This document shows, one piece after another, positions 56,936 through 58,681 of a stretch of DNA of 64,000 nucleotides. The notes under the pieces are model-generated. The model was not told where the DNA came from, did no database searches, and was given only the letters and a program-made list of their open reading frames with translations. Source of the stretch: Pelosinus fermentans DSM 17108 (lineage in GTDB: Bacteria > Bacillota > Negativicutes > DSM-13327); NCBI RefSeq assembly GCF_000271485.2, contig NZ_AKVN02000001.1:3311501-3375500 (forward strand). The letters run 5' to 3'. Numbering within the stretch: the first letter of the stretch is position 1; every line of letters starts with the position of its first letter. Both the position numbers and the translations under genes were made by a program.

Positions 56936-57337
56936 CTATAAGTTCCCCATAACCATGCCAATCTTCATACCATCAAAGAAGCCCTTGTTATAGTGCATGT
57001 AGGTAGCCGTTACCATCATTAGAGTAACGGCTTCACTCACTTCCCCCGCCTGCCCTTCTAATAGTAGATCGACTTGCTCCATTAGCCTTGTATATTCACT
57101 TGAGAAGTTACTAAATTGCAACTTCTCCTCTGCTTTATCCTGACGCATCAGAATAAATTCCTGCCAATCACGCAGGGCATCCCCTTTATCCATCCATCGT
57201 CCGGTAAGCATACTTTTAATAGGTACAGTGATTTCTTCTTGCCCCTTTTGATCTGGGGGCAGAATCTCCTTCATTCTATCTGTCAATTTTCTTTGACAGC
57301 GCCGGCTTTTCCTCTTTCGCTTCGCTATTACTGACAT
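56936..57337 (-). CDS. Unknown helical protein
   Basis: 133 residues. A basic head (MSVIAKRKRKSRRCQRKLTDRM) is followed by acidic helices EEKLQFSNFSSEYTRLMEQVDLLLEG and EAVTLMMVTATYMHYNKGFFDGMKIGMVMG. Start taken after GGGGGGATATAAATTG. No family recognised; the C-terminal FFDGMKxG pattern recurs in small Firmicute hypothetical proteins. Confidence 0.6.
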   Translation of the reverse strand: MSVIAKRKRKSRRCQRKLTDRMKEILPPDQKGQEEITVPIKSMLTGRWMDKGDALRDWQEFILMRQDKAEEKLQFSNFSSEYTRLMEQVDLLLEGQAGEVSEAVTLMMVTATYMHYNKGFFDGMKIGMVMGNL

Positions 57338-57558
57338 CAATTTATATCCCCCCATATTCATACTGCATGGAGCTTCTTCTATTCCTCTAGCTACATATAG
57401 GAATAGAAGAAACCAACACACAGCTACTTAATGGGAGAAATTAAAAAGCCCATGCGAGGTTTTTTAAACCTACACATGCGCTTTGCTTCGTCTTGATTGC
57501 ATGCAGACGCTCAGCTTCTGCCAGAACTACAATCTTACTATCCCGAACATACCATCCC

Positions 57559-57587
57559 TTGTTTTAAAGGAACGTTCACGGTATAAT
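57559..57587 (+). promoter_or_regulatory. Promoter of the orphan structured RNA
   Basis: TTGTTT at 57559-57564, 17 bp spacer, TATAAT at 57582-57587. Confidence 0.65.
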
Positions 57588-57592
57588 AAATT

Positions 57593-57686
57593 GTCGTCGT
57601 AGACAGGTAACTGTTACGTGTAGGTGCTTATGCCACCTGCTCGTGCCTGAGAGTGCTCTAACACTCTTAGGACACGGCGACTTTTT
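57593..57686 (+). ncRNA. Candidate structured small RNA (~94 nt)
   Basis: A sigma-A promoter is followed by a compact branched fold. P1 pairs GTCGTCGT (57593-57600) with ACGGCGAC (57674-57681). P2 is ACAG-GTAA-CTGT (57603-57614) with a GNRA loop. P3 is GTAGGTG / CACCTGC (57620-57640) with a 7 nt loop. P4 is CGTGCCTGAGAGTG / CACTCTTAGG(A)CACG (57642-57676); its foot overlaps P1. TTTTT follows P1. No gene lies downstream on this strand. It does not match tRNA, and I cannot place it in a known class. Confidence 0.55.
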
Positions 57687-57832
57687 AATTTCCACCTATT
57701 TCTAATTATATTACTTTTCTTTGGGATTGCAAGCAAAAAGTACTGTGGAAAATCAGCTCTTACAGTAAGACTTAGGCTGCTACAACATGGAAACTAAAAA
57801 TCCGATATCGTACATTATCTTAATTAAAATAT

Positions 57833-57867
57833 AATCCTGCAAAGCCAAAGCTTTGCAGGATTTTTTT
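57833..57867. terminator. Strong intrinsic terminator
   Basis: AATCCTGCAAAGC with its complement and a T7 run on the plus strand; also able to end the DJ-1 gene at 57937 on the minus strand. Confidence 0.85.
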
Positions 57868-57936: not shown

Positions 57937-58566
57937 CTATCCAAGAGATTGCATTAGTTTATAAAAATACTGGGTATCTTGTATTTTATGAAGCTGATAC
58001 CAACAATCTAAGGTCTCATCTGAAAATACATCAAGTCGCTTAAAAACTTGATACGCTAGCTCTATCGGCGCTGTACCACTTGCAGTAATGAGATCACCAT
58101 CGGTAACTGCACTTTGAAATTGAAAGTTCTCTTCCCCATGATAATTTGGACATTCCTTCTTGAGATATGCAAAATCATTACTAGTGTGCCGATATGTATC
58201 TAAAATTCCGGCTGATGCAAGTGCCATAGTAGCACCACAGATGGCGGCTACTGGAATACCTTTATCTAAACAATCTTTTGCCTTTCCTAATATCAAAGCA
58301 TGACATGAATCCATCCACGTTTCACCGCCAGGTAGTAGTAGCAGAGCACAATCCTGAGTATTAATTTCATCTATACTTCAATCCGGTATGATTCGCAACC
58401 CTCCCATGGTTGTAATCGGTTCCTTACTTAAACTGACAGTTTTAATCGTAAATCCTGGTATCCCTTTTTTAAAAAACCGTCCTGTTTTCAATTCAGCGGT
58501 TATATAGCCCCACTCCCAATCCGCCATTGTATTGAGAATATACATAAATATAGTGTTTTTACTCAT
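57937..58566 (-). pseudogene. DJ-1/PfpI family protein interrupted by one in-frame TGA
   Basis: Two halves lie in the same frame: ...ITTMGGLRIIPD-TGA-SIDEINTQDCALLLLPGGETWMDSC... with the nucleophile region AAICGATMALASAGILDTYRHTSNDF. Reading through 58378-58380 gives about 209 residues, normal for the family; a TGG (Trp) to TGA change would explain it (PDWSIDE). Translation could restart at MDSC but would lack the first strands. Confidence 0.75.
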
Positions 58567-58681
58567 TGAATTGCCGCCCATAACGACCACTCCACTCTTA
58601 TTGTATTTTTTCGTTTCATTATGTCCATATTATCAATTATCATACTGCTCCCCATGATAATATTCTCTGACTGCTCTATGC

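Follow-up and report, generated by a model that had tools for sequence, protein, structure and literature searches.

What is the function of a small structured RNA that has its own promoter and stands before no gene? The question is raised by a stretch of 64,000 nucleotides (nt) of Pelosinus fermentans DSM 17108 (the window; contig NZ_AKVN02000001.1, positions 3,311,501 to 3,375,500 of the forward strand). A sequence-only reading of the window had noticed a promoter and a compact RNA on the + strand with no gene downstream, and had proposed either a trans-acting RNA or an orphaned riboswitch. The absence of a downstream gene is true of the + strand, but the picture was incomplete, as the relevant gene lies on the opposite strand. 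The RNA appears to belong to a dispersed, previously uncatalogued chromosomal antisense RNA family with diversified specificity loops, whose members apparently silence a gene for a small protein on the other strand by an early stop of transcription.

A conserved structured RNA with its own promoter

The promoter, the four-stem RNA and the U-tract described earlier are all present at 57559-57686 (+). The promoter is read in the sequence as TTGTTT (57559-57564), N17 and TATAAT (57582-57587). The RNA of ~94 nt (57593-57686, start approximate) is delimited by its fold, a 53-sequence consensus and its homologues; it consists of P1 (8 base pairs [bp]; 57593-57600/57674-57681), P2 with a GUAA loop (57602-57606/57611-57615), P3 with a 7-nt loop (57620-57626/57634-57640) and P4 (57646-57655/57662-57671), followed by the U-tract (T5, 57682-57686), all on the + strand. 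Its predicted folding energy is -47.1 kcal/mol, compared with -24.8 +/- 3.0 kcal/mol in dinucleotide shuffles (z -7.36; none of 200 shuffles as good).

In an alignment of 53 copies, standard pairs account for 98.9% of the cells in 30 pairs. P4 covaries, with pairing-preserving changes on both sides in 40 cells, a value reached by none of 500 shuffles; sliding the partner strand as a control yields at most 17 such cells. P1-P3 are nearly invariant in this alignment and thus provide no covariation evidence; the search for homologues with compensatory changes in P1-P4, which had been suggested as a check, returned the homologues and covariation in P4. The same alignment contains 219 G-U cells and only 7 A-C cells in the + orientation, and three of the wobbles are nearly invariant, which argues that the + strand is the strand built to fold.

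With a covariance model built from the 53 copies, the RNA was detected in 33 genomes of a 380-genome sample of the class; a 398-genome sample of the phylum contained three carriers, one of them the genome of the window itself. Among named genomes, an exact-pattern scan located it in Pelosinus, Sporomusa, Propionispira, Propionispora, Anaerospora, Massilibacillus and two Desulfosporosinus. The Desulfosporosinus are members of a different class, Clostridia, where the relatives have the same unit design. Each carrier has from 1 to ~25 copies, with 25 in one Sporomusa-related genome (G316); in P. fermentans DSM 17108 there are five full copies (87-100% identity over 171 bp). Removal of repeats left 143 distinct copies, later 173, from Sporomusaceae-type Negativicutes and Desulfitobacteriaceae; a few of the 173 come from duplicate records of one organism, which leaves the within-genome counts unaffected. 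The TATAAT of the + strand promoter is kept in 139 of 140 copies, usually with a -35 element containing TTG at 17 bp and with a variable spacer. Conservation of fold, promoter and U-tract across well over 100 homologues supports the proposal of a structured RNA that has a promoter and a terminator of its own. The orphaned riboswitch, for which metal-sensing four-way-junction classes had been considered, did not hold up, as no Rfam class matches: the window as a whole gives no hit at a family's gathering score, and the RNA itself has no hit up to E 5. Literature searches returned nothing on this small RNA.

A leader with a putative attenuator on the opposite strand

A second promoter, TTGCAA (57732-57727), N16 and TATAAT (57710-57705) on the - strand, faces the RNA. 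This CTTGCAAT-N16-TATAAT arrangement is conserved with a variable spacer; the exact TATAAT is present in 108 of 140 copies, and the remainder are mostly close variants with the same -35. From the sequence and leader modelling, we place an untranslated leader at 57338-57698 (-; start approximate), the first ~105 nt of which are complementary to the small RNA. It is followed by a small open reading frame (ORF) of 133 amino acids (56936-57337, -; alternative start TTG at 57340), preceded by GGGGGA at 57352-57347 (-). Within the leader lies a putative attenuator, an intrinsic terminator with a 5' arm at 57481-57466, a 3' arm at 57462-57448 and a U-tract at 57447-57443 (-). The leader length class varies among copies, the arm lying ~107 to 260 nt beyond the RNA. 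A conserved TGCATGCAGACGC-type motif was also observed between the RNA and the terminator (57494-57506, -). With a conserved promoter, an attenuator-like complementary leader and a gene all on the opposite strand, a cis-encoded antisense RNA is the simplest reading, and the same features speak against the orphan, trans-acting RNA proposed before.

The terminator is well preserved. Its 106 distinct homologous hairpins have a median energy of -23.3 kcal/mol (range -17.8 to -30.5), are followed by U-tracts and show compensatory changes in the basal stem. At the 5' arm, GCGCATGTGTAGGT is found with no more than two mismatches in 131 of 137 copies, and GTGTAGG is unchanged in 141 of the 143 copies inspected; one of the two exceptions has no arm, and the other varies in the pre-emptor, the segment described below. 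The 3' partners of this motif wobble, with T1 opposite G in 63 and opposite A in 35 of a set of copies that had been selected for the motif. An invariant GTGTAGG with wobbling partners suggests a second constraint on the arm, as would be expected if it also pairs elsewhere.

A candidate for this second partner is the pre-emptor ACCUACACGU (57616-57625, -), located inside the antisense-covered part of the leader and complementary over 10 nt to AUGUGUAGGU of the terminator arm (57477-57468). Its core, CCTACAC, sits in the leader's complement of P3, and in 141 of 143 copies it is complementary to GTGTAGG, with a match of 7-10 nt. When the leader is folded as a nascent transcript that stops just past the arm, this pairing has a median predicted probability of 0.86; for the window copy it is predicted up to 0.96-0.99, and is lost to the terminator only once the whole 3' arm has emerged. 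When the antisense-covered part is masked in the folding prediction, the terminator begins to form earlier. The competition between the foot of P4 and P1 for CACG, which had been regarded as a switch-like feature, is possible within the fold, but comparative support exists for a different competition, that between pre-emptor and terminator in the opposite-strand transcript. Both promoters, the RNA fold, the terminator and the pre-emptor are kept in nearly all copies examined.

The 5' end of the leader, GGAAAUUAAAAAG (57681-57693, -), can base-pair with CUUUUUAAUUUC (57448-57437), the tail of the terminator, and the leader fold as predicted contains this helix. Cognate tails match each other better than shuffled combinations do; because the copies are related, this result is suggestive only, and so is the possible second antiterminator helix that the tails might form.

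Hypervariable loops

Two segments of the RNA stand out by their difference rate, the P3 loop (57627-57633, +) and the P4 loop (57656-57661, +), which differ ~10 times faster than the rest of the unit. Among within-genome pairs that are less than 3% different elsewhere (n=4), the loops show 0.31 differences per nt; the leader has 0.029, and the RNA outside the loops 0.003. Between-genome pairs of the same band show 0.19 differences per nt in the loops, and the <3% pairs overall show 0.02-0.03 in the leader and 0.003-0.009 in the RNA outside the loops. In wider divergence bands, loop differences remain at ~0.35-0.45 per nt. Such change above background suggests diversifying selection on the loops, and a local mutational cause may also produce it.

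Copies within one genome always differ in the P3 loop, the P4 loop or both, as none of 626 within-genome pairs shares the two loops. We rejected this count as proof of loop avoidance; independence alone predicts ~0.3 such pairs, and the argument therefore rests on the rate contrast. Predicted loop-loop energies favour the cognate partner in 148 of 148 RNAs with a median margin of 10 kcal/mol, a value that measures the margin and not the mechanism because the cognate partner is perfectly complementary by construction.

The loops also bear on the possibility that the + strand RNA acts in trans, or together with a protein, and that the gene on the other strand is a bystander. RNAs sharing a trans target would hardly be expected to have hypervariable loops, and the promoter, terminator and pre-emptor of the - strand are conserved together with the RNA in nearly all copies. 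Even though the stable fold belongs to the + strand (219 G-U against 7 A-C cells) and the RNA is conserved far above the gene families, we regard this explanation as very improbable.

A proposed mechanism

Cis-antisense attenuation would proceed as follows. Transcription from the - strand promoter would produce a leader RNA running through the complement of the small RNA toward the terminator before the small gene. Without the antisense RNA, the pre-emptor would pair with the 5' arm of the terminator as the arm leaves the polymerase, and transcription would continue into the gene. The folded + strand RNA would make its first contact with the leader through the P3 and P4 loops; it would then pair across the pre-emptor, the terminator would form and the gene would remain off. 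If the loops are recognition sites and change quickly, each copy should silence its own gene only.

Comparison among copies supports the anatomy on which this scheme is built, that is, the promoters, fold, terminator, pre-emptor complementarity, loop hypervariability and gene variety. Folding predictions are the basis for premature termination upon antisense binding, and we infer the kissing-loop contact and the orthogonality between copies. Several points weigh against the scheme. Both transcripts are deduced from sequence comparison. At equilibrium, the full-length leader is predicted to favour the terminator even without antisense RNA (P 0.69 in the window), so the switch would have to be kinetic. 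The evidence for the pre-emptor and the arm is conservation, not covariation, and P1-P3 are too invariant for covariation to have any power there. In addition, the terminator of the antisense RNA would be the long-range P1 adjoining the U-tract, which is unusual. Taking both sides together, we consider it likely that the copies, dispersed over the chromosome, form a family of cis-antisense transcription attenuators whose loops are mutually specific.

Genes downstream of the putative attenuator

The ORFs beyond the terminator form clusters that look unrelated to each other, including DUF6809-like proteins, SymE-toxin proteins, small proteins with no assigned family and an ACT-PAS-sigma54 regulator. 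In most clusters, including that of the window ORF, changes are over-represented at codon position 3 (44-56%); the figure for cluster 4 is only 38%. The window ORF matches no Pfam or NCBIfam model, and hence not Pfam PF20648 (DUF6809) directly, but hhalign detects a distant resemblance to the DUF6809-like copies (P 5.5e-5, probability 66%). A copy from another genome (L183) scores 116.7 bits against DUF6809, and a literature search found no paper naming this domain. In four copies (L064, L088, L181 and L228), the gene behind the attenuator is not that of a small protein but that of an ACT-PAS-sigma54 (TyrR-like) regulator.

A SymE-like cluster, to which the window ORF does not belong, comprises 19 of 142 copies, and two representatives tested against the SymE_toxin Pfam model scored 42.9 and 33.8 bits (cut-off 29). 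One SymE-like copy (L305, a piece of IMGVR_UViG_2585428088_000002) is located between lysis-type genes and two serine-recombinase-like genes of a prophage, as named from their translations. SymR of Escherichia coli is an antisense RNA acting against the SymE toxin mRNA, and the units might accordingly be type I toxin-antitoxin loci, in which the antisense RNA blocks translation or destabilises the toxin mRNA. The SymE-like cluster, the small ORFs in a cis-antisense layout and the presence of one copy on a prophage-like contig all fit such loci. However, most copies encode other proteins, among them the ACT-PAS-sigma54 regulator, and the antisense region stops well before the ribosome-binding site is reached (~250 nt away in the window), with a conserved terminator between the two. 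The translation start is not overlapped either, as the RNA region in the window ends ~250 nt before the ORF start. A strict type I system was dropped because SymE-like proteins occur in a minority of copies only, and toxin-antitoxin control in general seems unlikely to us.

Compared with SymE/SymR of E. coli, the family thus shares a SymE-type protein in some copies and a cis-antisense RNA in all, but its RNA is placed upstream of a terminator rather than over the ribosome-binding site. The Sib/Ibs loci of E. coli are several near-identical chromosomal loci whose type I antisense RNAs act on the cognate partner. Repeated near-identical loci are common to both families, as would be antisense RNAs acting on the cognate partner; unlike Sib/Ibs, to which it is unrelated in sequence, the present family is predicted to act by transcription attenuation and to regulate genes of several families.

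History and neighbourhood of the locus

The window locus has changed within the genus. Its orthologue in Pelosinus strain JBW45 is interrupted by ~4.2 kilobases at the - strand promoter, and in another genome (G002) only part of the gene is left. Group II intron RNA is contained in the inserts of JBW45 and of a Sporomusa silvacetica copy. These introns lie beside the RNA, in the - strand promoter region, in two copies of JBW45 and one of S. silvacetica (L040, 5711-7515; L042, 5546-7350; L143, 2735-2808), and the terminator-like RNA may be a preferred target of group II introns.

Could the unit itself be a small mobile element, such as a MITE-like element or a gene cassette, with structures serving mobility? 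It is a dispersed multicopy unit of ~0.8 kilobases with differing flanks, as such an element would be. But what is conserved in it are expression signals, the ends that were compared show neither clear terminal repeats nor target duplications, and the window locus is partly syntenic across Pelosinus, including the interrupted orthologue and the deleted remnant. We therefore give this explanation very little credence. A plasmid or phage origin was also rejected: no record of the plasmid collection PLSDB or the phage collection INPHARED matched, and one prophage-like IMG/VR contig carries a copy.

Two further features were observed near the locus in the window. Two consecutive ORFs at 57937-58590 (-) resemble one DJ-1/PfpI-like protein, apparently broken near 58378, and a strong hairpin with a T-run at 57829-57866 (AATCCTGCAAAGC...GCTTTGCAGGATTTTTTT) is probably a separate terminator.

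Relation to known attenuators and significance

The closest parallels in design are the pT181 and pIP501 attenuators, in which an antisense RNA, a pre-emptor and a terminator precede the controlled gene (PMC5703833). With pT181 (RNAI and the repC leader) and pIP501 (RNAIII and the repR leader), the present family has in common a structured antisense RNA of ~90 nt, a countertranscribed leader, a terminator before the gene and a pre-emptor complementary to the terminator 5' arm. It differs in being chromosomal, with 1 to ~25 copies per genome, variable downstream genes (small ORFs or an ACT-PAS regulator, no replication gene), naturally diversified loops and no Rfam or plasmid match. With no replication initiator and no plasmid match, the unit would work like a pT181/pIP501 attenuator and not be a member of those plasmid families.

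In engineered orthogonal pT181 attenuators, specificity comes from the loop and upper stem of one scaffold, the aim being many independent switches (PMC3753616). The family described here appears to be a natural set of this kind, with up to ~25 members per genome. We lean modestly towards viewing it as self-diversifying, with one scaffold, loops under diversifying selection, each copy silencing its own gene, and the controlled genes freely exchanged.

Antisense attenuation with a pre-emptor is known mainly from the control of plasmid copy number. Here the same logic would serve as a widespread chromosomal gene-control module, absent from Rfam, present in two Bacillota classes and linked to several protein families. 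Its loops would constitute a natural experiment in which RNA-RNA specificity diversifies while the scaffold stays fixed, so that the avoidance of cross-talk among paralogous antisense RNAs becomes directly testable, and the family offers a ready-made library of candidate orthogonal RNA switches.
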